Below are positions 1 to 56,907 of a stretch of DNA of 64,000 bases, piece by piece. Every line of letters starts with the position of its first letter. Position 1 is the first letter of the stretch. The stretch lies in the NCBI GenBank assembly GCA_030737835.1, contig CM060850.1, forward strand, positions 17,420,739 to 17,484,738. Direction: 5' to 3'. The stretch comes from Acorus gramineus. Taxonomy: Eukaryota > Streptophyta > Magnoliopsida > Acorales > Acoraceae. The position numbers and the translations under genes were made by a program. The notes beneath the pieces were generated by a model. It did not search any database and had not been told where the DNA came from. It saw only the letters and a list, made by a program, of their open reading frames with translations.

Positions 1-769
1 ATAGGTGACATAGGCTCTTGGGACTGACTAGGCTGTTGGTCACCCTTGGTCCACCGATAGTCTCTCCCCACTCCGTAGGTCGTTTGGCCACTCCCACATT
101 CAGCACAATCCGTCTACCAAATCAGGAGGTGCCTACTGATGGGAGCCCCTGCACGGGACGACCTTTCTAACGCTGAGGTAGTCTCTACACGGATCCAACG
201 AAGGGAACAGAACAGCCTATCCATCGCATATGATCCACTCGGATCCGCCGACAGCACATCTCTACAACTCTAATGTCTTGAATTCTTCAGAATTCCACCA
301 GCGCGCATAACCAAAATGCGGGGAATACATAAGACAATAATGAAGAAAAGAGACCTTGGGAGGGCAACCTGAGGTCCCGATGTAGGACATCCCGCCAACC
401 AAACAAGGAACACAGAGTACCCTAACCCGGGTCTCAATGTTAACCTCGCAAGGCCCCCTTATATTCCCCAAGGCATGCTAACAATATTAAAGCTTGCATT
501 TAATTAAATAAATCAAACTAATAGGACGCATGCATAGGTCGGGGCTTTCCTAGCATGATAACGAGGTGACATGATGCACGGCTCATGCACATATCCTAAG
601 GGTGCAAGTCCCTAACATACAAGTCTAGGGTGGCATGCATTCTACACATTAATCATGCTTGCATGGATTACAATATAACAGTTAATATTAACTATGTGCC
701 CCAGGGGAGGACGGTACACGCCCAAGTGCATGTAGCGCCTCCCAAACTGGGTTGGGTTGTCCCACTCAC

Positions 770-805
770 CGGAAGTCGGGTCGTCGCGCGACCGTCCGTC
801 AAGAT
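770..805 (-). other. Exon-like 36-nt leader segment in LTR copy C
   Basis: On the minus strand the segment follows CCTGTCTTGCAG and is followed by GTGAGTGGG, which are strong acceptor and donor matches. Its core GGTCGCGCGACGACC is itself palindromic. The same segment occurs in the same order in the other LTR copies at 7165-7201, 13256-13289, 36989-37024 and 59674-59709. Confidence 0.55.
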
Positions 806-2054
806 CTGCAAGACAGGGTATCAACTTGGTGAGTAAAATCCACAAATACCACAAAATACATAAAAACATACAAATAAACACCCAACACTCGGGCAAACGT
901 GCATACGGCCCGTACGCACGCTAGCCCGAGCACCCCGACTCACTCCCGCACCCTCAGCAACCACCCGCACGGTCACCCGCCCCCGGATGCACCGCCGCGC
1001 CTCAGCCCGCGCACCCAGGCGCACCGCCGGGCCCCTGCCCGCACGCCTGGACATGCTGCCGAGCCACCCGGGTGCACCGCGCGCCCACTGCGCCCCATCG
1101 CAGCAGCCCGCGCGCACGCCGCACGCCCCGCGCGCACACCAAACACCCCGCGCCCAACGCCTCACCCCGCGCGCACCCCACGCGCACCTCCACTGCCCTC
1201 GCCTCGCTCCGCGCGCACCTCACGCGCATCACCGGCTCACACCATCCGCTCGACCAGCCCCGCACCGGTGCACCCGCGCGCACTACGCCCCAGCGCAGCG
1301 CCCCGCACGCGCACCTGCCCGCGCGCATCCGCTGCTCACCTCACCGCGCGCACGCCTGCGCCTCTGCCCAGCGCCCCGCGCGCATGCTCCTGCACAGCTC
1401 AGCGCCCAGCACCCCAACGCCCAGCACACCCAGCACGCAACACAGCCAGCACGCCCACGCCTGCGCCACCCGAGCGCACGCCCGCGCGCACGTCCGCGTG
1501 CACGAGCCCAACCTGCTGCGCTGCTTGCTGCCTGTGCTGCTGCCTGTGCTGCTGCCCTACCCGAGACAGCAACCCCCTCTGTCCGAGCACCTCCACCACC
1601 AACCACCGGCCACCCATGGCCTCCGACCGCCCCCAACCACCTCCGACAGCCACCCACAGCCGCCGACCACCACCCAACCTCAAAACCACCCTCCTAACAA
1701 GCATCTAAGCCAAAAAGAAGAGGAAAAAGAGCTTACCAAGGAAAGGAAGGGATGTTCGGTTGCTCTCCGCGCACCGAAACGCCTCTCCAAGGGTTTCCAC
1801 CACCAAGACCTCTTCCCACCTCCGAAATGGCTCCGATCTGAGGAGAAGAGAGGGCGGAAGAAAGGGCTAGACACGCCGGAATTCGAATTTGAAACCACCG
1901 GGGTGTAGATCGGGACCGGATCTACACTTTCTATGCTTTAGGTTTTAAGGTTTGAGAACTCTAGGGGGCTCAAAAGCTTGAAAAAGAGAGAGGGGGAGAG
2001 AGAAAAAGCTTTTGGGAAGATGATGGATAGTACATGGCAAACTTTTTAGCTTTC

Positions 2055-2212
2055 TTAAATAGTCAACTCAACTTAACTTAGGGCTAATCAAGATTAATTA
2101 GGCTTAAGGGCTAGATTAGGTGAGTTAAGTGGCCTTTGACTTGGGTCAACCCAACCACACAAAAAAACAAAAAGGGTTGACCAAGTCATGGGCCCACTTT
2201 GACCGAGTTGAC
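2055..2212 (-). promoter_or_regulatory. Variant U3 promoter: TATA-like box with W-box cluster
   Basis: On the minus strand a TATA-like TATTTAAG lies near 2055-2062. Six TTGAC cores occur within about 150 bp: GTCAA on plus at 2062-2066 and 2145-2149, and TTGAC on plus at 2136-2140, 2177-2181, 2199-2203 and 2208-2212. TTGAC followed by C or T is the binding core of WRKY factors. The sister LTRs lack this segment and instead have TATAAAAGG directly after the conserved GTATCCGGG stretch. Stress responsiveness is inference only. Confidence 0.45.
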
Positions 2213-2490
2213 TCTCCCAATGACTTCTCGCTCGGTAAAAACCCAGATACGCCCCGGAACTGCGAAATTTCAGAAACGTTGCCGGAATTCGATGAAAATT
2301 TCATGAGTGGCTTAGAATGGCACCAGGACACATAATATGCAGTTAGATTTCCAATCGGAGTCCTCTAGCTCAGGACGATAGCTAACAGTCCAAAATTTTA
2401 GCGGTTCCGATCGAAAAATGAAAAAAACTAAAAAACTACCAAAATGCTCCAATGGTTACCAGCAGGTCAAAAAGTGACACATATATAACA

Positions 2491-5400: not shown

Positions 5401-5698
5401 GATGACTATTCGTACTTTGATTTCTGTTGCTTCTGTTCATCAATGGCCCACTTATCAGCTTGATGTCAAGAAAACTTTTCTTTATGGTGATTTATCAGAG
5501 GAGGTTTACATGACTCCTCCTCCAGGTCTTCCTCATCCATCTGGTCATGTATGTCATCTTCACCACGCTCTCTATGGTCTCAAGAAGGCTCCTCGTGCTT
5601 GGTTCGCTCGATTCACTGATGCTATCTGTGCTGTTGGGTTTGTTCTGAGTTCCTCTGATCCAGCTTTATTTGTTCACACCTCTGGTCCTCATCGTACT
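2491..5698 (+). pseudogene. Copia A gag-pol, 5' and middle part
   Basis: One frame stays open from 2491 to a TGA at 5225-5227. It encodes the C-terminal part of Gag, a zinc knuckle (CYYCHKFGHVQSEC, about 3088-3129), the aspartic protease motif LDSGASHHM (about 3481-3510), a pre-integrase HHLGH domain (about 3889) and an integrase core with the catalytic D, D and E in HSDVW, RSDCGGEY and NGVAERKH. The same frame resumes after the TGA with reverse transcriptase fingers (SCKWVYKIK, then LYGLKKAPRAW) and has a further TAG near 5354. At 5698 the inserted gypsy element breaks it. Gag and pol are fused in one frame, as usual for copia. The premature stops make it a pseudogene. Confidence 0.92.
5694..5698 (+). 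repeat. Target-site duplication GTACT, left copy
   Basis: GTACT directly precedes the LTR start TGTTATATATG at 5699 and is repeated directly after the element end GCGTGACA at 15044-15048. Five base pairs is the usual LTR-element duplication size, so this fixes both ends of the inserted element. Confidence 0.95.
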
Positions 5699-5961
5699 TG
5701 TTATATATGTGTCACTTTTGACCTGTTGGTAACCGTTAGAGCGCCCTGGCGGTTTTTAAAATTTTTAGGGTTTTCAATCGGAACCGCTTATTTTCAGACT
5801 GTTAGCTATCGTCTGAGCTAGAGGACTCCAATTGGAAATCTGACCGCATATTTGGTGTCCTGGTGCCATTTTAGACCTCTCACGAAAATTTCATTGAATT
5901 CCGGCATCGTTCACGAAAATTTCGCAGTTCCGGGGCGTATCCGGGTTTTTAAGTGACTTGT

Positions 5962-5968
5962 TATAAAG
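5962..5968 (+). promoter_or_regulatory. TATA box of LTR copy A
   Basis: TATAAAG lies about 264 bp into the LTR, after the conserved GTATCCGGGTTTTTAAG. The 3' LTR has the stronger TATAAAAG at 12043-12050. This would put transcription start near 5990-6000, making U3 short (about 0.3 kb) and R plus U5 nearly 3 kb. Confidence 0.6.
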
Positions 5969-7164
5969 GAAATCAAATAAAAAAAATCACTATTCATCGT
6001 CTCTCCCGTCGTGATTTCCTCTCTCCCCTCTCCGTTTTTCTTCCGTTTGAGCCCCCTCCACCCCTCGAAATCGAAAACCTAAAGCACGGGAAGTGTAGAT
6101 CGGGTCCCGATCTACGCTCCGGTGTCTTCAAATCCGAATTCCGGCGACTTTAGCCTCCCCGACCTCCCCTTTTCGTCCTCTGATTTGGCCCATTCCGAGG
6201 GATAAGCTAGATCGGGGCGTGAGAAGGCTTTTGGGAAGGGTTTCGGCGCGTGGAGATCCACCGGACGCCTCTTCCTCCCCTCGGTAAGCCTTCTTTCTCT
6301 CCTTTTTCTTGCTTAGATGAATGCTAGGGGGAGGTTTTTGTGATTGGGGGTGGTCGGCGGCTGTGGGGGTCGTCGGAGGGTGGTCGGAGGTGGTGGGAGG
6401 TGGTCGGGAGTCGGTGGGTGGTGGTTTGGGTGGTCTCGGGTAGCTGGTGGTGGCGCTCGGGCAGGGGCAGGTCGTCCGGGCCAAGCAGCAGCAGCAGCAG
6501 CAGCCAGGCGGCGCCAGGTCGGGTGCGCGCGGGCAGGCGCGCGTGCGTGCGCGGGCGCGCGTACGCGCGGCGTGCGCGCGAGGGCGTGCGGGCCTGGTGC
6601 AGGGTGCTGGTCGGCCTGGGCGAGCAGGGGCTGGGCCTGGGCGAGCAGGGGCTGGTGCTGGGCGAGCAGAGGCCGAGCTGGGCGGCTGGTGCGCGTGGAG
6701 CAGGTCGCGCGGGTGCGCGGACGGCGTGCGCGAGGCCGCGGCGTGCGCGAGGCCGTGGCTGAGGGTGCGGATGGCGTGCGCGAGGCCGTGGCGTGCGCGA
6801 GCCGTGACTGAGGGTGCGGATGGCCGTGCGCGAGGCGTGCGCGAGGCATGCGCGAGGTGCGGCAAGGCGTGCGAGGTGCGTGCGAGGTGGCGGAGGTGCG
6901 CACGGGGTGCGCGCGAGGCGGGGCACTGCGTGCGGGGGCGCGCGGGGTGCTCGCGGACCGGCGCGAGGCGTGCGGGGCCCGCGGCGGCGCGTCCGGGCGG
7001 TGGCCGACCGTGCGGGTGGTTGCCGGGGGCCGTGCGGGTGGTTGCCGAGGCCGCGGGTAGTTGTTGGGGAGGTGTTGGATGCTTGTTGTGGGTTTTGGGA
7101 TGTTTAATTATGTATTTAATGATAGCTGTGGATTTATACTTACCAAATAATACCTGTCTTGCAG

Positions 7165-7201
7165 ATCTCGACGGCTGGTCGCGCGACGACCCCGATCACT
7201 G
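7165..7201 (+). other. Exon-like 37-nt leader segment in LTR copy A
   Basis: It is preceded by CTGTCTTGCAG and followed by GTGAGTGGG. A first donor (TCG then GTAAGC at 6294) lies upstream and an acceptor (TTTTTCCCCAG, ending 8544) downstream, so a three-exon untranslated leader can be drawn inside the LTR. Transcript data are needed to prove splicing. Confidence 0.55.
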
Positions 7202-7512
7202 GTGAGTGGGACAATCCAACCCAGTCGAGAGGTGTTATACGCACTTGGGCGTATACCGACCTCTCCTGGGGCGTCATGGATGAATATTAACTTGCAATAA
7301 TATGTAATCCATGCTTGTATGATTTATGTGTAGAATGCATGCTTCCCTAGTCTTTGCATGTTAGGGACTTGCCCCTTAGGATATGCATATGAGCCTTGCA
7401 GCATGTCCCCTGTTTACATGCTAGGAAACCCGGCCTATGCATGTGTCCTACTAGTTTTATTTATTAAATTAAATACTAGTATCTGTTGAATTGCATGTTA
7501 TAGTGATTATTT

Positions 7513-7890
7513 TAGGGGAGGGGCCTTGCGAGGACAGCGGTGAGACCCGGGTTAGGGTACACCGTGTTCCTTGTTTGGTTGTCGGAGCGTCCTATAACGG
7601 GAACTCACGCTGCCCTCCCGAGTTGCTTTCCCCCAAGAATATTTCACCATGTTATAACCTTATGCATGTTCCCCGCATCGTAGTTATGCGCCCTGGTGGG
7701 TTCTGAGGAATTCAGAACGTTAGAGTTGTATGTTTGGTATGATTATTAGCATGAGTAGTGAATATTATAGGGGAGGGACCTTGCGAGGACAGCGGTGAGA
7801 CCCGTGTTAGGGTACTCCGTGTTCCTTGTTTGGTTGTCGGGGTACCCTGTATCGGGAACTCACGCCGCCCTCCCGAGTTTCTTTCCCCCA
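7513..7890 (+). repeat. Two copies of a roughly 110-bp LTR module
   Basis: Both units run from GGGCCTTGCGAGGACAGCGG through GTTCCTTGTTTGGTTGTCGG to CCCTCCCGAGTT (about 7513-7630 and 7771-7890). The same pair is at about 13603-13715 and 13860-13975 in the 3' LTR, and single diverged copies occur in the internal regions at about 11010-11130 and 62220-62350. No function is known to me. Confidence 0.85.
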
Positions 7891-8957
7891 GTGATATTCC
7901 AACACTGCTTTTGATTGTACTGTTTCCCCGCATCTTGGTTATGCACGCTGGTGGAACTCTGAAGAGTTCATGACATTTGAGTTGGAGAGATGCGTTGTCG
8001 GCGGATCCGAGTGGATCATATGCGTATGGATTAGGCTGTTCTGTTCCCTGCATTGGATCCGGTAGAGACTACCCCCAACGTTAGACAGGGCCTTCCTGAC
8101 AGAGGGCTCCCATCAGTAGGCACCTCCTGATTTGGTGACGGACTGTGCTGAATGTGGGAGTAGACCAGGCGGCCTACGGAGTGGAGGGAGAGACTATCGG
8201 TGGACCAAGGGAGACCAACAGCCTAGTCAGTCCCAAAATCCTATGTCACCTTTGGAAAGGTGAGGGTGAGGGTGAAGTGGGTTGGCGATGAGCGACCCGC
8301 TGGTTTTGTTTGTGAATGATTGTAAGTCCCAAAATCCTGAGTCCCCTGTTGAGGGGTAAAGGTGAGGGTATGATCTGGATTATGGAAGTTGTGGTTTAGA
8401 ATGGATTAATGTTTATGTTGTTCCTGCCCCTTTGAGGCGGGACGAATAGCTGGATTAATATGTTGTGGTCAATATTGTCTGTGATGCATGGGTTGTGCCG
8501 TTCACTGAGCGTGTGGCTCACCCCTCGCATATGTTTTTCCCCAGTTGCCACTGAGCCTGAGCTGGAGCCGGAGCAGCAGTTGGAGCTTTCCGAGGGATTT
8601 CTTCAGTAGCGGAGCAGCGCTACGTCCGCGAGTACCAGAGGCTATCAGCATCCCTTTCCTTGGCTGTATGTATCTTGTTTCCGTGCTGAGCACGTGTTGT
8701 ATATATTCAGTTGTTATTTGTGTATATTGGCTCTCACAGGACGTATGATTGAGTATCGAGTCTGTAGAATGTTTATTCACAGATTCAGTCTTTTGCTTCC
8801 GCATTTGGTGTATATATTATGTCAGCCCTTTTGATATGTGTTGTCATTTTATTTGTGGTTTAGAGTATATGCATTTGACCTCCTGTGTAGGTTTCTGATA
8901 TGATATATATACATTTGCCGCGTCCCGGGGTTGGCCGCCCTGGGGCGTGACAAAAGT

Positions 8958-8969
8958 TGGTATCAGAGC
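8958..8969 (+). other. Primer binding site, initiator Met tRNA
   Basis: TGGTATCAGAGC lies five bases after the 5' LTR end. It is the standard plant LTR-retrotransposon primer binding site for reverse transcription. Confidence 0.95.
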
Positions 8970-9071
8970 CTGGTCCTGTCAGAGCCAATAGTCTTCCTTT
9001 CGTAGAGATGAGTCCTAGGATTTCGAGATGAGTATTCTGATCCTAGTGTCTGGTTTTCTTAGGGTGCTGAT

Positions 9072-10605
9072 ATGCCTCCTCGCAGAGGACGGCGCGGACG
9101 AGGTCCCTCTCGGTCTTTGGAGGTTTCCGGACCTACCAGAGACGAGGATGCTACCGGAGAGCCCTTGACGCAGGAGCCTCCTGCTTGGGAGCGTGCTTTC
9201 GCTCGGTTGGCTGATTTGGTGGAGACACAGACGCGGATGTTGGCAGAGCAGGCTAGGGAGATTCAGGAGCTGAGGGCGACCCGCGAGGCAGTTCCGCCGG
9301 TCCCCTTGGTGGTAGATCCGCCTGTGGTACCTGATGTACCCCCAGTTCCTGTGGCAGTTCCGGCGGTGGGAGTTGAGGATCCCCTGCAAAGGGAGGAGGA
9401 GCTAGAGGCGGCAGCGCGGGTGCAGCAGAGCGGCCTCAGCGCCTTTCTGAAGCTCCATCCTCCCGAGTTTCATGGGCAGTCGGCAGATCCTCTTGCGCCA
9501 GAGCGTTGGTTGAGGGAGGTGGACAATTTTCGCGGCCATGCTTTGCACCGATCGCCAGCGAGTCGCCCTGGCCACTTTCATGCTGAAGGGTGACGCCGCC
9601 GACTGGTGGGCTACCCGAGTGGAGGACATCCCAGAGGGAGTGGCGCGGCTCACTTGGGCGAGTTTCCGGAGGCATTTTCTGGATGAGTATTTTCCGTTCT
9701 CGACGCGACAGCTAGTGGAGCGGGAGTTCGAGCAGCTGACTCAGGGCACCATGTCCGTCGCTGACTACTCTACGCGCTTCACGAGTCTGTCCAGATTTGC
9801 TCCAGCCTTGGTGACGGATGAGGTCACGAGGTGCCGGCGATTCGAGCTGGGTCTCAGCAGCGCTATCCGGGTGCATGTCACTGCCCACGCTTTCACGAGG
9901 TACTCCGACGTAGTGTCTCGGGCGAAGACCGTCGAGAGAGACCTCGGGATTCAAGTGCGGGCTCCGACCCCTTCTTCAGATCAGGGTCCTTCCGGGAGTC
10001 GGGACCAGGGGCAGCGCAAGAGGAAGAGGCCCCGCTTCGAGCAGTCAGCGGCTGCCTCTCCTCCAGCAGATGCGGTGCCAGTATGGGATCCGGCGCCCAT
10101 TGCAGCAGTGCCCATCCAGTCCTGGCAGCCGGAGAAGCGGCGCTGTTTTCATTGTCAGCGCATCGGGCATATCAGATACAATTGCCCAGATGCTGACCGA
10201 CCCCGAGTGCCACCTCAGCAGCCGCCGTTCTTGCAGCAGCAGCTTCCGCGCCAGCAGCAGCAGCAGCAGCCTCAGCGCCAGCAGCAGCCAGTGCAGCCGG
10301 CGAGGCGTGCTCCTGTTCCTCAGCCGCGGTTGGTGCAGGGCAGAGTTGCAGCGCTTACGGCCGAGGAGGCGCAGCCTTCGGGTGTCATGGTTCGAGGTAT
10401 CATCTTGTGTTCCCAGCTTTCTAGTATAAGGATAGTTGTGTGTGTAATTGGTGGTTATTATGCAAGTGTGTGGGGTATCTGGATGAGTGAGTGTCAAGAG
10501 CGGTTGTTTGGGTTAAGGAAGCCGGTTTATCGTCCTGGCAGTGAGTTCCCATCAGTAGGTACCGCCGATGCAGTCGGAGGGGTACTGAATTTGGGAGTAT
10601 GCTAG
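9072..10605 (+). pseudogene. Gypsy-type gag polyprotein, frameshifted
   Basis: The ATG at 9072 opens an Arg/Gly- and Pro-rich N-terminus with a helical stretch (AWERAFARLADLVETQTRML), then the gag core (FLKLHPPEFHG). The frame is lost near 9533 by one extra base and continues one frame over from about 9538 with GDAADWW, FRRHFLDEYFP and FTRYSDVVSRAKTVERDL, all typical of plant Ty3/gypsy Gag. A CCHC knuckle (CFHCQRIGHIRYNC) is at about 10143-10184, followed by a Gln/Pro-rich tract. The recognisable Gag ends near 10395 at MVRG; the frame then runs into LTR-like sequence and stops at 10605. Protease, which should follow, is missing. The frameshift suggests this copy no longer makes full Gag. Confidence 0.9.
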
Positions 10606-11165
10606 GTAGGGGCTACCCGGTAAGAGGTTATTGAATGGTGTCGCGAGCGTGGAATCGCTCTCCCCTTCGTTGGATCCGCGTAGTACAGCCCCGGCGTTAG
10701 ACAGGCTCCCGGTCAGAGGACCAGGCGAGCTACGGAGCGGGGAGAGGCTACCGGTGGACCAGGGGTAGAGAGCAGTCTAAGTCTCTCCCAAAGTCCCAAA
10801 ATGTCTCCTTTCGGGAGTGAGGGTGTGGATGAGGCGAAGGCGGGTCGCTCGTGACCCAATTTCTGATTCGACCGTTCCCGATGACGTCGGGTCTGGTCTT
10901 GTAATCGATGTTGAATGACATCGTTGGGAGATCATCTAGATGTAGATGATCCGGAAGAGTTAGTGGTGTTCTTTTAAATGATGTCTTCTTCCAGTGTTCC
11001 TTTCTGGATTAAGGGGCCTTGTGAGGTCGGCGTTGGAACCCGGGCTAGGGTACTTCGTGTTCCTTGTTTGGTTGTCGGGGTATCCTATATCGGGATTCCA
11101 TGGTGCCCTCCCGAGGTTTCTTTTCCCAGGCAAGGGATACCATGGAAGCATCAGATAGATGGAAG
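10530..11165 (+). repeat. LTR-like segment replacing pol
   Basis: Where protease and reverse transcriptase should be there is sequence resembling the LTR: CCCATCAGTAGGTACC, GTTGGATCCGCGTAG, GGCGTTAGACAGG, GGTGGACCAGGGG and then the 110-bp module (GTTCCTTGTTTGGTTGTCGG, about 11060-11080). Order is scrambled and divergence from the LTRs is clear. The same segment occupies the same place in the minus-strand element at 62180-63290. Confidence 0.75.
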
Positions 11166-11510
11166 ATCCAGTGCGAGTTTTGGTTAGAGGATTAAGGCCT
11201 TTTTGGCTGAGGGATTTCTGGTGAAGGCATATCTGTGGACCCGGGTAAGACGCTTGCTATGTCGAATTGGCGTAGACCGTCGAGCCCCGCATGGATTCGG
11301 AGCTTCCGGAGTTTGGCGAGTTATTGCAGGAGGTTTGACGAGGATTCTCGAAGATAGCTGTTCCTCTTAACCGCCTTACTCGGAGGGATATCCGGTTCGA
11401 GTGGTCCCCTTCTTGCGAGGAGAGCTTCCTGGAGTTTACTCGGAGGCTCACCTCAGCGCCAATTCTTACCTCTCCGTCTTGGAGTGGTGGGTTCGCAGTT
11501 GGGTAAAGGT
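11166..11510 (+). pseudogene. Reverse transcriptase/RNase H remnant
   Basis: With frameshifts and stops this reads CEFWL, SGEGISVDPG, then a stretch matching the end of gypsy reverse transcriptase and the start of RNase H, including FEWSPSCEESFLEF. The better preserved counterpart is on the minus strand at 61857-62170. The catalytic YVDD region is absent, so it cannot be active. Confidence 0.75.
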
Positions 11511-11514
11511 GTGT

Positions 11515-11765
11515 CCGCGATCCTGCTCACGTCATCCCGTTCGAGCCGCTCGTCTCTGAGCCGGACAGTCATTCGTGGAGCAGTCGATTGAGATCATGGA
11601 CCGCCGCGTGAGGAGGCTCTGCACCAAGACCGTTTAGTTGGTCGAGGTGCGATGGCAGCACCGTTCCGGTGTTAAGGACACTTGGGAGCTCATGGAGGCC
11701 AGGTTCGACGCGTATCCGCATCTTTCCCCTCCTAGATGTTTTTGGCGAATTTTGGGGACAAAATT
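11515..11765 (+). pseudogene. Integrase C-terminal remnant
   Basis: Fragments match the last part of gypsy pol: RRLCTKTV, VEVRWQHRSGVKDTW in the counterpart at 61602-61790, and the terminal FGDKIS-like stretch just before the purine tract. The DDE core is missing. A stop lies in the middle (TAG near 11634). Confidence 0.65.
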
Positions 11766-11782
11766 TCCTAAGGGGGGAATAA
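11766..11782 (+). other. Polypurine tract of the gypsy-type element
   Basis: TCCTAAGGGGGGAATAA directly precedes the 3' LTR start at 11783. It primes plus-strand synthesis. The minus element has CCTAAGGGGGGAAGAA in the same place (61591-61606). Confidence 0.85.
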
Positions 11783-14700
11783 TGTTATATATGTGTCACT
11801 TTTAACCTGTTGGTAACCGTTAGAGCGCCCTGGCGGTTTTTAAAATTTTTAGGGTTTTCGTCGGAACCGCTTATTTCAGACTGTTAGCTATCGTCTGAGC
11901 TAGAGGACTCCGATTGGAAATCTGACTGCATATTTGGTGTCCTGGCGCCATTTTAGACCTCCACGAAAATTTCATCGAATTCTGGCATCGTTTGCAAAAA
12001 TTTCTCAGTTCCGGGGCGTATCCGGGTTTTTAAGTGACTTGTTATAAAAGGAAATCAAATAAAACAAAAATCACTATTCATTGTCTCTCCCGACGTGATT
12101 TTCTCTCTCCCCTCCTCCGTTTTTCTTCCGTTTGAGCCCCCTCCACCCCTCGAAATCGAAAACCCAAAGCACGGGAAGTGTAGATCGGGTCCCGATCTAC
12201 ACACCGGTGTCTTCAAATCCGAATTCCGACGACTTTAGCCTCCCCGACCTCCCCTTTTCGTCCTCTGATTTGGCCAATTCCGAGGGATAAGCTAGATCGG
12301 GACGTGAGAAGGCTTTTGGGAAGGGTTTCGGCGCGTGGAGATCCACCGGACGCCTCTTCCTCCCCTCGGTAAGCCTTCTTTCTCTCCTTTTTCTTGCTTA
12401 GATGAATGCTAGGGGGAGGTTTTTGTGATTGGGGGTGGTCGGCGGCTGTGGGGGTCGTCGGAGGGTGGTCGGAGGTGGTGGGAGGTGGTCGGGAGTCGGT
12501 GGGTGGTGGTTTGGGTGGTCTCGGGCAGCTGGTGGTGGCGCTCGGGCAGGGGCAGGTCGTCCGGGCCAAGCAGCAGCAGCAGTAGCAGCCAGGCGGCGCC
12601 AGGTCGGATGCGCGCGGGCAGGCGCGCGTGCGTGCGCGGGCGCGCGTACGCGCGGCGTGCGCGCGAGGGCGTGCGGGCCTGGTGCAGGGTGCTGGTCGGC
12701 CTGGGCGAGCAGGGGCTGGAGCTGGTCGGCCTGGGCGAGCAGGGGCTGGTGCTGGGCGAGCAGAGGCCGAGCTGGGCGGCTGGTGCGCGTGGAGCAGGTC
12801 GCGCGGGTGCGCGGACGGCGTGCGCGAGGCCGCGGCGTGCGCGAGGCCGTGGCTGAGGGTGCGGATGGCGTGCGCGAGGCCGTGGCGTGCGCGAGCCGTG
12901 CTGAGGGTGCGGATGGCCGTGCGCGAGGCGTGCGCGAGGCATGCGCGAGGTGCGGCAAGGCGTGCGAGGTGCGTGCGAGGTGGCGGAGGTGCGCGCGGGG
13001 TGCGCGCGAGGCGGGGCACTGCGTGCGGGGGCGCGCGGGGTGCTCGCGGACCGGCGCGAGGCGTGCGGGGCCCGCGGCGGCGCGTCCGGGCGGTGGCCGA
13101 CCGTGCGGGTGGTTGCCGGGGCCGTGCGGGTGGTTGCCGAGGCCGCGGGTAGTTGTTGGGGAGGTGTTGGATGCTTGTTGTGGGTTTTGGGGTGTTTAAT
13201 TTATGTATTTAATGATAATTGTGGATTATACTTACCAATAATACCTGTCTTGCAGATCTCGACAGCGGTCGCGCGACGACCCGATACTGGTGAGTGGGAC
13301 AATCCAACCCAGTCGAGAGGTGTTATACGCACTTGGGCGTATACCGACCTCTCCTGGGGCGCCATGGATAAATATTAACCTGCAATAATATGTAATCCAT
13401 GCTTGTATGATTATGTGTAGAATGCATGCTTCCCTAGTCTTTGCATGTTAGGGACTTGCACCCCTAGGATATGCATATGAGCCTTGCAGCATGTCCCCTG
13501 TTTACATGCTAGGAAACCCGGCCTATGCATGTGTCCTACTAGTTTTATTTATTAAATTAAATACTAGTATCTGTTGAATTGCATGTTATAGTGATTATTT
13601 TAGGGGAGGGGCCTTGCGAGGACAGCGGTGAGACCCGGGTTAGGGTACACCGTGTTCCTTGTTTGGTTGTCGGAGCGTCCTATAACGGGAACTCACGCTG
13701 CCCTCCCGAGTTGCTTTCCCCCAAGAATATTTCACCATGTTATAACCTTATGCATGTTCCCCGCATCGTAGTTATGCGCCCTGGTGGGTTCTGAGGAATT
13801 CAGAACGTTAGAGTTGTATGTTTGGTATGATTATTAGCATGAGTAGTGAATATTATAGGGGAGGGACCTTGCGAGGACAGCGGTGAGACCCGTGTTAGGG
13901 TACTCCGTGTTCCTTGTTTGGTTGTCGGGGTACCCTGTATCGGGAACTCACGCCGCCCTCCCGAGTTTCTTTCCCCCAGTGGTATTCAACACTGCTTTTG
14001 ATTGTACTGTTTCCCCGCATCTTGGATATGCGCCCTGGAGGAACTCTGAAGAGTTCATGACATTTGAGTTGGAGAGATGCGTTGTCGGCGGATCCGAGTG
14101 GATCATATGCGTATGGATTAGGCTGTTCTGTTCCCTGCGTTGGATCCGGTAGAGACTACCCCCAACGTTAGACAGGGCCTTCCTGACAGAGGGCTCCCAT
14201 CAGTAGGCACCTCCTGATTTGGTGACGGACTGTGCTGAATGTGGGAGTAGACCAGGCGGCCTACGGAGTGGAGGGAGAGACTATCGGTGGACCAAGGGAG
14301 ACCAACAGCCTAGTCAGTCCCAAAATCCTATGTCACCTTTGGAAAGGTGAGGGTGAGGGTGAAGTGGGTTGGCGATGAGCGACCCGCTGGTTTTGTTTGT
14401 GAATGATTGTTAGTCCCAAAATCCTGAGTCCCCTGTTGAGGGGTAAAGGTGAGGGTATGATCTGGATTATGGAAGTTGTGGTTTAGAATAGATTGATGTT
14501 TATGCTGTTCCTGCCCCTTTGAGGCGGGACGAATAGCTGGATTAATATGTTGTGGTCAATATTGTCTGTGATGCATGGGTTGTGCCGTTCACTGAGCGTG
14601 TGGCTCACCCCTCGCATATGTTTTTCCCCAGTTGCCACTGAGCCTGAGCTGGAGCCGGAGCAGCAGTTGGAGCTTTCCGAGGGATTTCTTCAGTAGCGGA

Positions 14701-15043
14701 GCAGCGTTACGTCCGCGAGTACCAGAGGCTATCAGCATCCCTTTCCTTGGCTGTATGTATTTTATTTCCGTGCTTGGCACGTGTTGGTCTATGTTCAGTT
14801 GTATATTTGTGTATATTGGCTCTCACAGGACGTATGATTGAGTATCGAGTCTGTAGAATGTTTATTCACAGATTCAGTCTTTTGCTTCCGCAATATTGTG
14901 TATATATTATGTCAGCCCTGTTTGATATGTGTTGTCATTTTATTTGTGGTTTAGAGTATATGCATTTGACCTCCTGTGTAGGTTTCTGATATGATATATA
15001 TACATTTGCCGCGTCCCGGGGTTGGCCGCCCTGGGGCGTGACA
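11783..15043 (+). repeat. 3' LTR (copy B) of the 9.3-kb element
   Basis: 3261 bp, TGTTATATATG to GCGTGACA, collinear with 5699-8952 over its whole length with few differences. It has TATAAAAG at 12043, a first donor at 12369, the GC-rich block at about 12540-13160, a 34-nt exon-like segment at 13256-13289 bounded by TTGCAG and GTGAGT, both 110-bp modules, and a third acceptor ending at 14631. Confidence 0.95.
13256..13289 (+). other. Exon-like leader segment in LTR copy B
   Basis: Preceded by CTGTCTTGCAG and followed by GTGAGTGGG, as in copy A, but three bases shorter. Splice signals are intact although the segment itself has small deletions. Confidence 0.5.
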
Positions 15044-16006
15044 GTACTATCCTGCTGCTTTATGTTGATGACATGATCATCATCGGAGATGATTCGTCTC
15101 ATATACAGTCGGTCAAGCAACATTTTCAGCGTCAGTTTGAGATGAAAGATCTTGACAAACTTTGATATTTTCTAGGCTTGGAAGTTGCTTCTGCTCCGCG
15201 TGGTTATCTTCTCTCCCAACGCAAGTATACTGCTGACTTGATCGACCGTGCCTGTCTGACTGATGATCGCATTTCTCCCACTCCTATTGAGCTTCATGCT
15301 AAGTTCCGACCTGACGATGGAGAACCACTTTCTGATGTTACTCATTATAGACAGCTTGTTGGAAGCCTCGTCTATCTCACTGTCACTCGTCCTAACATTG
15401 CCTATGCTGTGCATAATTTTAGTCAGTTTGTCCCTGCCCCTCGTACTGTTCATTATGCAGCAGTTCTTCATATTATATGCTATCTACGTGGCACTATATC
15501 TCGTGCTCTACTATTACCATCTTCTTCTACTCTTGAACTTCGCGTTTATACTGATGTTGATTGGGCAGGAGATGTCACAGATCAAAAATCCATGACTGGT
15601 ATGTGTATTTTTTGGTGACTCTCTTATATCTTGGAAGGCCAAGAAACAAGACATTGTTTCTCGTTCGAGTGTTGAGGCTGAATATCATGCTATGGCATCT
15701 GCTACTGCTGAGGTTGTTTGGCTTCGGCGCCTCCTCTCTGACATGGGCGTCATTCTATCTGTGTCTACTCCTCTATATTGTGACAACAAGAGCGCCATTC
15801 AGATTGCTAGCAATTCAGTTTTTCATGAACGTACGAAGCACATCCAAATCGATTGTCACTTTGTTTGTCAACATTTTATTGTGAGCACTATATCACTCCC
15901 ATATATTTCCTCTTCTCTTAAGTTATATGACTTTTTCACAAAGTCACATACACTTCAGCGACATGGTTTCTTGTTGAGCAAACTCTCGGTGTATGATCCA
16001 CCATGA
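15044..16006 (+). pseudogene. Copia A reverse transcriptase 3' part and RNase H
   Basis: The frame interrupted at 5698 resumes here with LLLYVDDMIIIGDD, the catalytic reverse transcriptase motif, then YFLGLEV, the connection region (LVGSLVYLTVTRPNIAYAV) and RNase H (YTDVDWAGD, EAEYHAMA, CDNKSAIQIA, FHERTKHIQIDCHF). A TGA lies near 15164 and a frameshift near 15615, so it is dead. The normal copia stop is at 16004-16006, just before the purine tract. Confidence 0.92.

Positions 16007-16145: not shown

Positions 16146-16208
<63 letters not shown>
16146..16208. repeat. Compound microsatellite (AT)n(GA)n
   Basis: About 35 bp of alternating AT are followed by about 28 bp of alternating GA, directly after the copia LTR and before the foldback element. 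Confidence 0.95.
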
Positions 16209-16209
<1 letters not shown>

Positions 16210-19200
16210 GATTACATGCGGTTGAATGGCTGGTGTGGATTTATTGTGAACCCTCTGATCAAAGAAACTATGATCTGACGGTTAGAAAAAAAAACCATTC
16301 AAACCGCTTGAAACAGGTCAACCAGTTTCAACCTTACCACTCTCTCTCCACTCTTAAAATAAATTTTGGATATGAATATTTTTTTTTAAACCTCTATCAC
16401 CTCTCTCGCCAGAATCTTGTATTTTATTTTTTCAAATCTTTCCCATCTCTCTCACTAGAATCCAAATGTTTTTCAAACCCCTCTCATCTCTCACTAGATC
16501 TGAAATATGATCTCCCTTCACCAGATCTGAAACAACCACCCCCACTGTCAAATCCTCCACACCAGCAACCCCCCCCCCCCCCCCGCCACCACCTCTGCTG
16601 CGACGCCCCGCCCGACCTCCCTCGGCTACCAGCACCTTGCAACGACACCCCCACCTTTGCTACGTCTGTAAGTATTTTTTCAATTTTTTGTAGTAGGTAC
16701 TTATCATCTTTGATGTTTTTCTTATTTGTTCTTAGATCTATTTTTTTTCAGATTTATTTTCAATTTAGGTTTTTCTCTATTTGTTTTCAGACATAGGGTT
16801 TTTTTTTCCTGAAATTTATTTTCAGATATAGGGTACATGTGGCCTTCTGTAAATGTTGAGCCAGCACTCTCTTCGACGCAACTATTAGGGAGTATCCATT
16901 CTTTTCTAGAAATTTGTTATTTCCCTTGGTGGAGTACAATGAAGAGATTTTTATTTCCAAAAATGGCAGTTATTAAGGAGTACATTATTTTTTCCGATTC
17001 TTGAATATGCCATCTTATGCAAAAAAAAGTTTTTCTATCTAACAAAAATTTATACCCCTTAATTTATTTGATATGATTTCTTAATTTATTGAATGAAAGA
17101 ATGATCTTAGACATTTGTTGCCCTATGATTTGTTTTCGCTGGATTGGGTTCTTTCTCTATGTTGTTGAGTTAAATAAGTTTACATGTTCAAATTGTTAGT
17201 ATTATTGCTGGATTGGGTTCTCTCTATTCATAAATCCAGATTGTAACAGATGCAAAGGTTTCATAGTGTCATTCATAATGGGGGATTTTAGTTGTGTTTT
17301 ATTTTTCCGTTGGCAGTTGAAGTAGCTTTTGCATGTGTGTCTAGTATGTTTTGACTTTCCATATGGGCTGTTCAAACTGTCAAAGGTTTTTTAGCGTTGT
17401 TACACTCAGATTCATTTCCGGCTTCAATTCCAGCCCTATATGCGTCAATAGATTCCTATCAACGCATATGCTTAAGTTAACCAGGGATATACTTTGAAAG
17501 AATTTTTTTACATGTTCTATAAATGTATCCATGTAATTCATTGGAGTATATACTTCATGATTTATAAAAATATGTAACTCATTAGATGAAGTATACTATT
17601 TTTAAAAAATTTAAAATATATGTAAATTTGAATTAAGGCTAGAAGTGGAGCTAGATGTAACATTATCCAAGGTTTTTACATCTTCAAAAAAATCTCATAT
17701 AAACATCAACCTTATATCAAAAAACCTTTGACAGTTTGAACAGCCCATATAAAAAGTCAAAGAGTGCTAACTTGCAGAGTCCGTTTAACAGCTCATTTTG
17801 TAGCCCCATATGCTATGATAATGTAATATATATTGCACTATCATAGTATATACTGCACTACAATAGTATATACTACAGTCCATTTTTTTATCATGAAAAA
17901 AATAAACTAATGTATCTCATTATATACTTCATTTTATATAACAGCACGCACTTCAAATGGTGAGTACATAATTTTATATAAAAAAAAAGAAAAACGGGAT
18001 GAACTGTAATTGAGGTTACAATGGGGTTACGTGTATCTTTTTCCAAAGTAAAAAATATAGAAGAGCTACTTCAACTGCCAACCGAAAAATAAAAACACGA
18101 CTAAAATCCCCCATTATGAATGACAGTATGAAACCTTTGCATTGTTACAATCTGGATTTGTGAATAAAGAGAACCCAATCCAGCAATAATACTAACAGTT
18201 TGAACATGTAAACTTATTTAACAACGGCATAGAGAAAGAACCCAATCTAGCAATAATACTAACAGTTTGAACATGTAAACTTATTTAACTCAACAGCATA
18301 GAGAAAGAACCAATCCAGCGAAAACAAATCATAGGGCAACAAATGTCTAAGATCATTCTTTCATTCAATAAATTAAGAAATCATATCCAATAAATTAAGG
18401 GGTATAAATTTTTGTCAGATAGAAAAACTTTTTTTGCATAAGATGGTATATTCAAGAATTGGAAAAAATAATGTACTCCTTAAGAACTGCCATTTGGAAA
18501 TAAAAATCTCTTCATTGCAATCCACCAAGGGAAATAACAAATTTCTAGAAAAGAATGGATACTCCCTAATAGTTGCGTGTTGCGTGGAAGAGAGTGTTGG
18601 TGCTTCATATTCAGAAGGCCACATGTACCCTATATCTGAAAATAAATTTCAGGAAAAAAAACCCTATGTCTGAAAACAAATAGAGAAAAACCTAAATTGA
18701 AAATAAATTTGAAAAAAAAAATAGATCTGAGAACAAATCAGATACACATCAAAGATGATCAGTATCTACCAAAAAATTGAAAAAATACTTACAGACGCAG
18801 CAAAGGTAGGGGTGTCATTGCAAGGTGCTGGTAGCCGAGGGAGGTCGGGTGGGGTGTTGCAGCAGAGGTGGTGGCGGAGGGGTTGCTGGTGTGGAGGATC
18901 TGATGGTGGTGGGGGTGGTTGTTTCAAATCTAGTGAAGGGAGATCATATTTTCAGATCTAGTGAGAGATGAAGGGGTTTGAAAAACATTTAGATTCTGAT
19001 GAGAGAGATGGAAGAGATTTGAAAAAAATTCAAAATTCTGGCAAGAGAGGTGAGAGGTTTGAAAAAAAATTCAGATCCAAAAAAATTTTTAGGAGTGGAG
19101 AGAGAGTGGTAAGGTTGAAACTGGTTGACCTGTTTCAGGTGGTTTGAATGGTTTTTTTTCTAACCGTCAGATCATAGTTTCTTTGATCGGAGGGTTCACA

Positions 19201-19235
19201 ATAAATCCGCACCAGCCATTCAACCGTCCGTAATC
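16210..19235. mobile_element. 3-kb foldback (long inverted repeat) element
   Basis: The left arm starting GATTACATGCGGTTGAATGG matches the reverse complement of the right end (GATTACGGACGGTTGAATGG). Pairing continues through nearly the whole unit: 16530-16660 with 18800-18900, 16860-17070 with 18395-18600, 17155-17330 with 18060-18310, and 17350-17395 with 17718-17760. The central spacer is about 320 bp. The right arm has an extra stretch of about 270 bp at about 17770-18050 and a 67-69 bp tandem duplication (18174-18240 and 18241-18310). No transposase gene is seen. Its transcript could form a long hairpin. Class is uncertain: foldback, or a non-autonomous MULE or hAT with long arms. Confidence 0.85.
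18174..18310. repeat. Tandem duplication in the foldback right arm
   Basis: Two copies of a 67-69 bp unit (CCCAATCCAGCAATAATACT to GCATAGAGAAAGAA). The left arm has only one copy, so the duplication happened after the inverted repeat formed. Confidence 0.9.
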
Positions 19236-20811
19236 ATTTCTCTATGTATGTATAAAATCACCTAACACATCATATAAAATATGTATTTAATTTTTTTAAG
19301 TATCAATTTTTTTATAGTATATAGTTGTAGATAAATATATATATTTTTATTAATAAAAAAATATAGTTCAAAATATATTCAATTCAAATTGGGTACATAG
19401 AATTGGATGAATGATTAACATTTTCCTAATAAAAAATCTTGGAGGGGGCTCTATACCCACCCCACCAAATGAGAACCCATCAATTTTAAAAAATTAAAAA
19501 TAGATCTTTATGTTCACATGAAACAATGAAAACCCCGACCCTCTCACCCCCTCTCAAGGCTTTTTTGAGGTGATGACTCCATGTCTCTAATCGCTTTCAT
19601 TTACAACCATATATATATAGATTTTTAAAAATTTGAATATCTCAAAAGTATTTTAATGGGTTCGTTTTGTTTCGCCCAACTAACTTTTGAGATAAACTAA
19701 TATTAAAACTCACATCTAAACGCCCTAAGCATACTCCCCAACTATGATTCACATGTTATACTAACCATCACCCATCAAGAACCCATATTAGGAACAAAAG
19801 ATTGAGACCCACACGACAATTTTATTTTCATATTTCTGATGATCAAACTCAAAACATTTTTCTTCTTTTCCACACAAAAATTTTCAATTTCTAAAAGCCT
19901 TCCTTTTCAACTGCAAAATCATAAGCACCTCTTAAATTTCACCTAACAAATAAGACTCAAACTCAAGATCTACCTTTAACACAAATAAACCCCTAAACCA
20001 TTTTACTATGGCCAATGAGACTATATGAGTATTAAAATACAAATTATTTAAATTTAGAACACAGAAGTCATAGAACTATCATTTCCAAACCCAAAAAGAG
20101 ACCCCTTGCATGGAAGGAGAGAAGGTGTCACTACTTTCTCGACTTGACGGCAACAAGAGATTAGTTTGTCGGCGACCAGAGGCAGGGCATGGTGGTTGAG
20201 AATGTCGACAAGAAGATAGGCCGACGGCGAGAGCTCGAGGAGGAGGATGATGCGTTCAGGATAGAGAGAGAGATTGTAGAGTGGGTTAGGTGGGATTTCA
20301 CAGTCAGTTTAGTATATTTAAGTCCGTCAATTATCCCAAAATAATCTATATTCGATTCGAAAATTTGAAAAATTATCCGATATTCGAAAATCCGTAACTG
20401 TTTCCAAAATATTTGGAATAAGATATGGAAATGGTGGTATCCGATCTGAAAAATATCCGTATCCAAAATTTATTTTGTATTATTATTTATTATATTAATA
20501 TATTTATATTTTTAGGGTTAGAATTTTTTTTAAATTATACTTTAAACAATGTAATCTACTTATAATTTTTATAAATTTATGTTATATTAGTAATTATTAG
20601 ATTTTCTAAATATTTCATATATTAGATATATTATTTTTATTTTACAGATATTTTGGATATTTATCCGAATTTGAATTTTTTAGATCAAATACGGATATTT
20701 AATTTAAATATCTATTGGATATCAGATACGGATATTTGTTTCAATATCTAGATCGGATATGAATACCCATATGAGTCTATCTGATCCATATCTGCTCTAT
20801 TGATAGGCTTA
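19236..20811. other. AT-rich intergenic DNA, no gene seen
   Basis: No convincing coding stretch on either strand. About 20335-20790 holds short recurring GGATATT and TATCCGAA-like words, probably an old degenerate repeat. Nothing further can be supported. Confidence 0.6.
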
Positions 20812-35678: not shown

Positions 35679-36988
35679 TGTTATACCTGTGTCATTTAGA
35701 GCAATTTTGGTTAAGCCTTGGTCGCATCTGGGTCATTCATGGACCCTTTTCTTTTTCGATCGGAGTCACTAAAATTTTGGCTTTTAGCCACCTGCGGGAG
35801 TTGGAGTACTCTGATTGAAAATCTAACTGCATATTATGGGTCCTGGTACTGTTTCATACTACCCATAAAAATTTCATCAAATTCCGGTAACGTTTTGAAA
35901 AATATGCAGTTCCGAACCGTATCCGGGTTTTGAGAGTTCCTGGTTGGTCGAATAGTGTGAGATATTTTTGGGATGTGGTGACCCTTGGTAACCTTACCCC
36001 CACCTTGCTTGGGGATGAAGAAACCATTGGTTATTTGATATGTGAGTGGGTGAGCCTAACCCTAACCTCACCCCCCCTTAAGGTCACCCCTAGGCACTAT
36101 TTGGGCATGAAAATGACTTTTTTGCCCTCTCTCTCTCCCCCTCTCTCCCATTTCGTGGAACACCTTCTCTCCCTCTCTTGGTCTCTTTTTTTCTCCTCTT
36201 TGTGTGTGAAGAAGGAGGAGGAAGAAGCAATTGAAGGAAAAGATGAAGAAGAAGCACAAGAAAGAGTGAGAAAGGGTGAGTATGTGTTGTTGTTGTTGTT
36301 GTTGTTTCTCTTCTCTCTATCCCTTTCTCATGCCCCTTTGCACCCCTGTTTTCTGCCATGAAGGGCTTGAGGAGATGCTGATGAGGTGGTGGTAGTGGTG
36401 GTGGTGATTGAGGTGGTCGTGGGTGTGTCGAGAACCCCGCATCTCCCCATTTCCCTCCCCCTGTTTTGGTAAGGCAGCACTCTGTATTTTAAAGATCTCA
36501 GTGCATCTAGTATTTAGAGACACATTTTTAGGATTATGTCTTCATATGATATGATCATCTATGTGTCTAGTTGTTATATATGAAATTTGGGCTCATTATG
36601 ATATATGTGGTGTAAGTTAGAACCTGTTTTGCATGGCCTGTCCAGATTCGCGTAGGAATTGACCTGCTTCTGGAAATAATTTATTTCAGGCTTGTAGAGG
36701 CAAAATTAGGTTCTAATGTCTTCATGGATTATGATCCCCGCATATCAGAGAATGTGCATGTTTTATTTCATAATTTTTGGAAGTGTATTGGGTGTTGTGG
36801 AGATCAATTAGTAGGGCTGGTTGCAGCAGGTTTGGCAGTTTTGTTTGGTTGAGTGTCAAGGAGTTGTTTGCATGTGTCTTGTGTGATAATATGGAAGTAT
36901 CAGGGGTTAGGGTCTTCATGAAGTAGGCTTATATGTGTGGTAGGAGGTTCCATAATTTAATTATGGATCATTGGTTGTGTTTTGCAGA

Positions 36989-37024
36989 TCTCGTAGATCG
37001 GACGCGCGGCGATCCGGGTATCGG
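36989..37024 (+). other. Exon-like 36-nt leader segment in the solo LTR
   Basis: Preceded by TTGTGTTTTGCAG and followed by GTGAGTGG. Within it ATCTCGTAGATCGGACGCGC resembles the segment in the other subfamily. Its retention in a diverged LTR argues for a function. Confidence 0.55.
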
Positions 37025-38724: not shown

Positions 38725-38954
38725 GATCTAGTAGTGTTGTGTAGACAAGTAATTCCAGGTCTCGTCGACCAACGGTATGGTCTCTCCCCAAAAGTCCCAA
38801 GAGTCTTCCTCCGGGAGTGAGGGTGAGGGTGAGGTTGGTGATCCAGTAGTGTTGTGTGGACCAGTAATTCTGTGTCTTTTTGACCAACAGTATGGTCTGC
38901 CCCCAAAAGTCCCAAGATTCTTCCTCTGGGAGTGAGGGTGAGGGTGAGGTTGGT
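38725..38954 (+). repeat. 115-bp tandem duplication in the solo LTR
   Basis: Units 38725-38839 and 38840-38954 both run from GATC(T/C)AGTAGTGTTGTGT to GTGAGGGTGAGGGTGAGG. The G-rich end repeats GGTGA and could form a G-quadruplex. Confidence 0.9.
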
Positions 38955-56774: not shown

Positions 56775-56907
56775 TGTCACGCCCCAGGGCCGGCCGTCCC
56801 CGGGACGCGGCAAGTGTATATATGATATCAGTATAAACAGGAGTTCAATAACATACTCACACAACAGCAAAAATGACAACACAGACAACAAAAGCAGGGC
56901 TGACATG
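56775..56907 (-). mobile_element. Fragment of gypsy-type LTR 1 (3' end)
   Basis: On plus it begins TGTCACGCCCCAGGG, the inverted LTR end, inside copia D. After 133 bp (GGGCTGACA) a second identical LTR end starts. The expected target copy for this insertion is TTAAG (56770-56774); the partner is off-window. Confidence 0.8.

Follow-up and report, generated by a model that had tools for sequence, protein, structure and literature searches.

The LTRs of a retrotransposon family in Acorus gramineus carry an intron, here intron 1, which, as read from the genomic copies that lack it, is spliced at exactly the sites bounding 6284-7164, and RNA that had lost this intron and still held intron 2 was reverse-transcribed. 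These LTRs probably contain a multi-exon leader, in which the removal of three spliceosomal introns would provide an ATG-free lead-in to gag and separate RNA pools. The window, that is the whole stretch analysed, comprises 64,000 nt of assembly GCA_030737835.1 (contig CM060850.1, positions 17,420,739-17,484,738, forward strand), and all coordinates given here are positions within it.

A gag-only element with long LTRs

The element is bounded by a 5' LTR (copy A, 5699-8952, plus strand; 3254 bp, TG...CA) and a 3' LTR (copy B, 11783-15043, plus strand), which pair in a self-BLAST with 97.5% identity. The earlier note had set the LTR at 5962-8600 and had counted A and B as separate copies; the self-BLAST pair replaces the first figure and makes A and B the two LTRs of one element. 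The target-site duplication GTACT stands on both outer flanks (left 5694-5698, right 15044-15048), and the plus strand also holds a primer-binding site (TGGTATCAGAGC, 8958-8969), which we take to be of the initiator-tRNA-Met type, and a polypurine tract (AAGGGGGGAA, 11770-11779), so that the paired TG..CA LTRs, the duplication, the primer-binding site and the polypurine tract that characterise an LTR retrotransposon are all present.

The gag gene (9072-10400, end approximate, plus strand; PF03732) is split over two reading frames in this element; its second open piece matched PF03732 with E 1.5e-18 in a Pfam profile search, and PF19259 fell slightly short of its cutoff (28.7 versus 29.1 bits). 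In the four stop-free pieces scanned within 11188-11790, the only trace of a pol domain was a sub-cutoff remnant with some likeness to the border between reverse transcriptase and RNase H (11339-11503, plus strand), weakly matched by Pfam PF17919 (E 0.009) and, again weakly, by PDB retroviral reverse transcriptase chains (E 0.0025-0.0031). The element may resemble the Tekay/Del chromovirus lineage; no chromodomain matched in the four internal pieces scanned by Pfam. It appears to be a gag-only element, of Ty3/gypsy type as judged by its gag, with no pol present to show the order of reverse transcriptase before integrase. With gag as the sole domain between its LTRs it falls within the definition of a TR-GAG, which allows gag and optionally protease between the LTRs and no other domain, an assignment for which the four stop-free pieces within 11188-11790 were profile-scanned and the shorter pieces of 10605-11187 were judged by eye only. 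TR-GAGs are non-autonomous LTR elements with gag as their only domain (PMC6022998); this likeness concerns the coding content, and LTR introns are unmentioned in the available text of that source.

The predicted leader lies on the plus strand of copy A. Exon 1 (5989-6283, predicted) has no ATG and is found elsewhere in the genome joined precisely to exon 2; its start at 5989 is predicted from ACTATTCAT and from a TATA-like motif close to 5962. It is followed by intron 1 (GTAAGC...TTGCAG, 6284-7164; 881 nt, 71% GC), exon 2 (7165-7201; 37 nt, 34-37 nt in relatives), predicted intron 2 (GTGAGT...TTTTTCCCCAG, 7202-8544), which at 8502-8531 contains a conserved TGAGC/GCTCA palindrome and a branch-point-like motif, CTCAC, and predicted exon 3 (8545-8665), which again has no ATG. 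Probable intron 3 (GTATGT...GGTTTTCTTAG, 8666-9062) extends across the LTR boundary, takes in the primer-binding site and stops 9 nt upstream of the gag ATG; it was absent from the list in the earlier note and is added here. The order TATA box, donor, 37-nt exon and acceptor described there for copy A is borne out, with all signals present in the sequence and exon 2, donor 2 (GTGAGT, 7202) and acceptor 2 (CAG ending at 8544) exactly where it had put them; donor 1 had been placed at 6294 and belongs at 6284.

The same order had been claimed for three other copies, and we recovered it in each: in copy B (donor 12369, exon 2 13256-13289, acceptor 2 14631), in the visible part of copy C (1-2490, minus strand, truncated at the start of the window; GT of donor 1 at 1736, exon 2 805-770) and in the 3' LTR copy D (56775-61590, minus strand; donor 1 61000, exon 2 59709-59674), where tandem duplications of the 3' part give two acceptors, ending at 58419 and 57310. 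The window also contains the start of LTR E (63663-64000, plus strand; locus L012), which runs past the window end, and a very diverged solo LTR, F (35679-39488, plus strand; duplication TCTCA), with exon 2 at 36988-37023 and acceptor 2 ending at 39105. A pair of F-like matches 9.2 kb apart was considered as an autonomous partner and rejected, the stretch consisting of nested fragments; three ORFs scanned in it had no Pfam domain, and the partner was not found.

Intron 1 is lost exactly at its splice sites

The exact exon 1-exon 2 junction gave 30 matches in the host genome and 2 in the reversed control; judged by eye, about 4 of these seem to be chance matches, leaving about 26 losses of intron 1. 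The first ten, all mismatch-free, were opened, and every one proved to be a family LTR whose gap matches intron 1 exactly, GT through AG; the beginning of intron 2 was retained in 10/10 and acceptor 2 was found in 9/10. A complete element with the duplication ACCAT lacks intron 1 in both LTRs. The earlier note had proposed that introns within the LTR are restored in both repeats by each transposition, which this element supports for intron 1.

Four further copies carry one extra G at this junction, and precisely such a junction is expected from a relative that still bears the intron and whose donor is shifted downstream by one base (TTGG|GTAAGG). The extra-G pattern had 5 matches and 1 in the reversed control. 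One match, L032, was unrelated to the family; another, L037, a truncated LTR, was included in our first tree and left out of the second, on account of its long branch, and of the 38-copy survey described below. Because the losses are exact and the subfamily with the shifted donor has the matching shifted junction, we conclude that intron 1 was spliced and that the spliced RNA was reverse-transcribed. The proposal that introns lie wholly inside the LTR thus holds for intron 1, seen as precise GT..AG excision in LTR copies; for intron 2 it is backed by conservation, with no processed copy.

Introns 2 and 3 and the competing explanations

Genome-wide, the motif spanning acceptor 1 and exon 2 had 4,214 exact matches and none in the reversed control. 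In the 38-copy survey donor 1 (GTAAG) and acceptor 1 (TTGCAG) were each kept in 25/25 intron-bearing copies, donor 2 in 37/38 copies and the GT of donor 3 in 34/36, the base before it being T in most; acceptor 2 had its CAG, sought within a 26-nt range, in 36/36, and acceptor 3 (TTTTCTTAG) was present in 11/11 copies where the primer-binding site was seen. A pyrimidine tract closes the acceptor-2 block; its sequence differs from copy to copy, the CAG being constant. The earlier note had proposed comparing splice dinucleotides with their neighbours, and across 20 fetched intron-bearing copies the outcome was mixed: the splice windows were invariant or nearly so, but 12-16% of nearby windows were equally conserved, and the copies had been chosen by identity over acceptor 2 and exon 3, a sample biased for those signals. 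Taken alone this test is weak and modestly informative.

The diverged LTR F retains exon 2 with both splice sites as well as acceptor 2, with local alignment scores of 39 for exon 2 (shuffled maximum 29, n=300) and 50 for acceptor 2 (shuffled maximum 29, n=200); donors 1 and 3 were not recovered in F, their local scores of 21 and 24 lying within the shuffled nulls. Local alignment was used in place of a global MAFFT alignment of A and F, in which exon 2 was misaligned, 0.51-0.99 of windows were at least as conserved as donor 1, acceptor 1, donor 2, acceptor 2 and donor 3, acceptor 2 had the lowest identity among the splice sites, and the branch-point block alone stood out (0.025 of windows).

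The predicted exons of the 38 copies contain 7 ATGs in total, and 33/38 copies have none. Pooled over the 38 copies, 186 would be expected by single-base frequencies, and the shuffle means (about 2.7 ATGs per three-exon copy) scale to roughly 100, figures that overstate independence given that the copies are kin; copy by copy, dinucleotide-preserving shuffles put the absence of ATGs at P 0.04-0.16. Introns 2 and 3 of copy A together place 50 ATGs upstream of gag. Two genome searches for copies lacking intron 2 each returned 0 matches, and a genome-wide search for the gag exon joined to a non-G base, as loss of intron 3 would leave it, returned 0 against 633 gag starts. The 0/633 is below what neutral decay would suggest, a figure assuming that the leading H in the pattern was matched as written. 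Since no processed copy was found, the case for introns 2 and 3 rests on conservation and ATG scarcity, from which we infer that they too are spliced. The suggestion that splicing parts a gag mRNA from the genome gains from the ATG-poor exons and the conserved acceptor just before gag, and it is likely that leader splicing would yield an mRNA from which gag can be translated, with replication left to the unspliced RNA.

The rival that survives best, although we consider it unlikely, is that intron 1 alone is real, with acceptor 2, the palindrome and donor 3 kept for packaging, dimerisation or polyadenylation, and gag translated from RNA that retains them, through leaky scanning, reinitiation or entry at an internal site. 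The contrast between about 26 exact losses of intron 1 and none of intron 2 in either search fits this explanation, as does the TGAGC/GCTCA palindrome within the acceptor-2 block, which LTR F retains. Against it, the same block has the CTCAC motif followed by the tract that varies around a constant CAG, the acceptor before gag is kept wherever the primer-binding site was seen, and gag translation would face the 50 ATGs of introns 2 and 3.

We think it improbable that the LTR simply captured a host-gene promoter and first exons, with inherited splice signals whose splicing is incidental to the element. The layout is indeed gene-like, with a CT-rich exon 1, a strong donor and a small exon 2, but the splice signals and ATG-poor exons persist in copies that share 80-97% identity with A and, to some extent, in F; an origin by capture would moreover be compatible with present use.

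It is very improbable that intron-less LTRs are ancestral and gained intron 1 afterwards. The first tree, with L037, had 2 changes of intron state, and the second, with L035b added and L037 removed, had at least 3; in the second a single clade of intron-bearing rows was rejected (p 5e-66), and intron-less copies stood beside intron-bearing sisters (L036 with L035b and L041 with C, support 100/100 and 98/99). The tree alone leaves the direction of change unfixed, but such pairs would require recombination or more than one gain at a single site, homologous intron ends are recognisable in A, C, D and L035b, and the acceptor that precedes exon 2 is shared by LTR F.

Motifs of the GT and AG kind occur often, but chance splice-like motifs or precise deletion by recombination can be set aside almost entirely, given exact junctions in two donor variants, the 30 versus 2 matches, and the lack at the junctions of the CAG that would remain if the CTTG repeats at the two ends of intron 1 had mediated a deletion. 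The loci examined gave 12 splice-type junction counts, which come from 10 separate sites, and none of the repeat-mediated type, a comparison biased by their retrieval with the splice-type pattern.

Proposed mechanism and known systems

The explanation we favour is a host-gene-like multi-exon 5' leader built into the LTR of a gag-only, Ty3/gypsy-type element. Transcription would start near 5989, three spliceosomal introns (6284-7164, 7202-8544 and 8666-9062) would be removed, and a leader with no ATG, about 460 nt long, would be joined directly to the gag start, the fully spliced RNA presumably serving as gag mRNA. Because the primer-binding site lies in intron 3, this RNA would be barred from reverse transcription, translation and replication would each draw on an RNA pool of its own, and introns 2 and 3 would stay. 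Whether the primer-binding site in the last leader intron acts as a switch is a tentative idea to which we give a little less than an even chance: full splicing would make gag mRNA and remove the start of reverse transcription, loss of intron 1 alone would escape and be fossilised, and introns 2 and 3 would never be lost. If true, this would be a natural retrotransposition-indicator system, present thousands of times in one genome.

Introns in LTRs should vanish whenever spliced RNA is reverse-transcribed, and their survival in thousands of copies bears on how the element separates its templates for translation and replication. Both intron-1 states occur in one family, making splicing, RNA choice and intron loss legible from DNA, and long LTRs dismissed as non-coding can hide gene-like leaders.

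Plant LTR elements are described in a review, in the text available, as generally without introns, with Ogre and EVADE named as exceptions (PMC12786077, PMC7730604). Ogre, a Ty3/gypsy element of legumes, loses a spliceosomal intron from a fraction of its transcripts (PMC6317226), as a plant gypsy element comparable to ours, but that intron is internal, between gag-pro and RT, whereas those predicted in the Acorus element lie in the LTR and across its border. In the barley copia element BARE1, spliced and unspliced RNA pools split translation from replication (PMC3735527); two such pools are proposed for the Acorus element, but the BARE1 intron, of 104 nt, interrupts coding sequence, and once it is spliced out gag alone is expressed, whereas here the leader would be spliced. 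Gag-only mRNA also arises by splicing in the EVADE short-gag RNA and in sunflower Tyran and Varan, the spliced gag mRNA of the latter two being truncated (PMC12786077, PMC7730604); the EVADE intron takes out the protease region, unlike the leader introns proposed here. R-U5 leader splicing has no mention in the available text of PMC2657110.

A literature phrase search found no description of LTR-resident introns in the text available, its only match being by title, on conjugative elements. In IMG/VR, gag tblastn gave 124 pattern matches, none confirmed as relatives, and the exon-2 pattern and the acceptor-2 motif had 0 matches each; Rfam gave 0 matches at the gathering threshold. Among animal retroviruses, HIV-2/SIV splice the leader (TAR), and HTLV and foamy viruses have splice donors in R; terms for HIV-2/SIV leader splicing were absent among the literature matches listed. 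These viruses would share with the Acorus element splicing within or from R-U5, but have one leader intron or donor only, whereas the Acorus element would have an exon-intron-exon series in a 3-kb LTR.

The element and its splice signals

The window is filled with nested plant LTR retrotransposons. One of these, inserted within a copia element, is bounded by LTRs at 5699-8952 (copy A) and 11783-15043 (copy B) with 97.5% identity, and has a GTACT target-site duplication on its outer flanks, a primer-binding site at 8958 reading TGGTATCAGAGC and a polypurine tract at 11770. The earlier note had treated A and B as separate copies; both are real, but they are the two LTRs of this single element. 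Since gag is its sole clear domain (PF03732, E 1.5e-18; split over two frames in this copy), and the one trace of pol is a weak match at the RT-RNase H border (PF17919, E 0.009, below the cutoff; PDB RT chains, E 0.0025-0.0031), the element is, judged by domain content, gag-only and non-autonomous, in keeping with the definition of TR-GAG (PMC6022998).

All the splice signals claimed for these LTRs were found in the order proposed, and at the coordinates proposed, except that donor 1 of copy A lies at 6284, not 6294. Intron 1 (6284-7164) is 71% GC, contains GCGTGCGCGAGG-like repeats and has long open frames on each strand; exon 2 (7165-7201) and predicted intron 2 (7202-8544) follow. In copy D, a further LTR of the family, the 3' end is tandemly duplicated and two acceptors are therefore present; three tandem copies of the LTR end lie within 56775-58041 (at 58038, 56906 and 56775), each with GTGACA. 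Copy F, a far diverged solo LTR (35679-39488, TCTCA duplication), keeps exon 2, with TTGCAG ahead and GGTGAGTGG spanning its donor (local alignment score 39; shuffle maximum 29, n=300), as well as acceptor 2 (score 50; shuffle maximum 29, n=200), with a branch-point-like motif and a TGAGC...GCTCA palindrome, while neither donor 1 (local score 21, null maximum 32) nor donor 3 (local score 24, null maximum 36) was alignable to it. The palindrome, TGAGC-N5-GCTCA at 8502-8531, just 5' of acceptor 2, has the same stem in F and an altered loop.

The earlier note had proposed weighing the splice sites against neighbouring sequence. In 20 LTRs fetched among 40 scored matches to a 101-nt acceptor-2/exon-3 query, GTAAG at donor 1, TTGCAG at acceptor 1 and GTGAGT at donor 2 are invariant (20/20), but 12-16% of neighbouring six-base windows are equally conserved, which leaves the comparison with modest informative value; since acceptor 2 and exon 3 lay within the query, this set is not a fair test of them. 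Mean conservation in these LTRs is 87% for exon 1, 82% for intron 1 and 87% for exon 2. Donor 1 and acceptor 1 are each kept in 25/25 cases in a set of 38 copies, and the acceptor-1/exon-2 31-mer has 4,214 exact matches in the genome searched for family copies (398.6 Mb, 137 contigs) versus 0 for the reversed control.

LTRs without intron 1

Reverse transcription of spliced RNA would be expected to yield LTRs with exon 1 fused to exon 2. The exact junction pattern, with at most one mismatch, has 30 genome matches versus 2 for the reversed control, about four of the 30 being chance-like when judged by eye. The first 10 matches, all mismatch-free, were opened, and every one is a family LTR from which the GT-to-AG stretch is absent with zero bases gained or lost, exon 2 and then the start of intron 2 coming directly after the junction. 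Donor 2 is intact in nine of the ten (L042 reads AT), and acceptor 2 lies downstream in nine (the exception is L043). Two of these loci belong to L048, a complete element whose LTRs (2312 and 2298 bp, 96.6% identity; duplication ACCAT) both lack intron 1, and other matches spaced 5-14 kb apart may be further LTR pairs. As genomic copies, these LTRs show that intron 1 is spliced, and that RNA which had lost intron 1 and still carried intron 2 was reverse-transcribed, regenerating both LTRs. The proposal that the LTR introns are spliced thus holds for intron 1; for introns 2 and 3, 0 processed copies were found.

Allowing one extra base in the pattern gave 5 genome matches versus 1 for the reversed control. 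One (L032) is unrelated, and the other four are family LTRs joined TTGG|ATCTTG: two solo (duplications CAGAG and TACCA), one 5' LTR with a primer-binding site and one truncated. In an intron-bearing relative, L035b, the donor lies one base later (TTGG|GTAAGG), so that exact splicing predicts the TTGG|ATCTTG junction, as observed; imprecise intron loss as the source of the extra G was therefore dropped. The truncated LTR, L037 (359-1390), lies within gag of another copy.

A tree was built from 38 LTRs, with L037 left out; the sample is uneven in that intron-less LTRs were found via the junction and most intron-bearing ones via likeness to A. It requires at least three changes of intron state and rejects a single clade of all intron-bearing LTRs (p 5e-66). 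L036, without intron 1, is sister to L035b, which has it (support 100/100); an earlier tree, which included L037 but not L035b, required 2 changes. Because the intron ends are homologous in A, C (another family LTR), D and L035b, and the same acceptor is present in F, repeated loss of intron 1 appears much likelier than repeated gain. Recombination between LTRs could also lie behind the changes of intron state. A deletion mediated by the CTTG repeats that lie at both ends of intron 1 would keep CAG in its product; the observed junctions have none, which counts against such an origin.

Predicted introns 2 and 3 and the proposed gag leader

Between acceptor 2 and gag there are ATGs that would precede gag. 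A predicted intron 3, with donor GTATGT at 8666 and acceptor GGTTTTCTTAG ending at 9062, 9 nt 5' of the gag ATG, would take these out, and with them the end of the LTR and the primer-binding site. The donor GT is present in 34/36 copies. Among 10 gag-bearing copies examined at acceptor 3, TTTTCTTAG|GGTGCTGATATG is found in 8/8 of those matched within four mismatches, the remaining two (L035 and L035b) keeping TTTTCTTAG and differing directly 3' of it; with L048, whose site is identical to those eight, the total is 11/11.

Copy A has 0 ATG in its predicted exons (462 nt up to the gag ATG) versus 59 in its introns. Dinucleotide-preserving shuffles gave P values of 0.039 (A), 0.050 (B), 0.162 (C) and 0.037 (D), so a single copy is weak proof by itself. 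The predicted exons of 38 copies hold 7 ATGs, with zero in 33/38, against 186 expected from single-base frequencies, a generous figure, or roughly 100 from a dinucleotide-shuffle mean of ~2.7 per three-exon copy; the copies being related, this scarcity is suggestive and does not amount to a formal test.

Genome searches for a copy without intron 2 gave 0 with a gapped pattern and 0 with a fixed-length pattern allowing one mismatch, and gag starts with a non-G base before them numbered 0, versus 633 gag starts in the genome. The alternative, in which intron 2 is no true intron, we consider unlikely. Donor 2 is kept in 37/38 copies, and acceptor 2 reads CAG in 36/36 (sought over a 26-nt range). 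If introns 2 and 3 are both spliced, as we favour, the full leader of ~460 nt would feed gag translation. RNA minus intron 3 would have no primer-binding site and could not serve as a template for reverse transcription. Splicing of intron 2 is probably coupled to that of intron 3, which would account for occasional losses of intron 1 and none of introns 2 and 3.

Leader splicing occurs in HIV-2/SIV. A phrase search of the literature, with subscription papers mostly outside its reach, returned nothing relevant on introns within LTRs. Among plant elements, an intron lies between gag-pro and RT in Ogre (PMC6317226) and within the coding region in BARE1 (PMC3735527), and splicing is described in EVADE (PMC12786077) and in Tyran and Varan (PMC7730604). 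A 2025 review describes introns as generally absent from plant LTR elements and names Ogre and EVADE as the exceptions (PMC12786077).

Shared modules and other repeats

The LTR and internal region of the A/B element have building blocks in common. One module, ~115-230 bp long, has two copies in intron 2 (7501-7728 and 7756-7984) and another after gag (11012-11128), and a second module is common to the LTR (8046-8279), the post-gag region (10532-10951) and the LTR of F (38257-38728). The F LTR and the internal region of A are 67% identical over 480 aligned columns. Elsewhere in the window there are an inverted repeat (16202-17330 and 18061-19243; ~90% identity, arms ~0.7 kb apart) and a direct repeat of ~0.7 kb (51480-52155 and 52374-53046; 69% identity).
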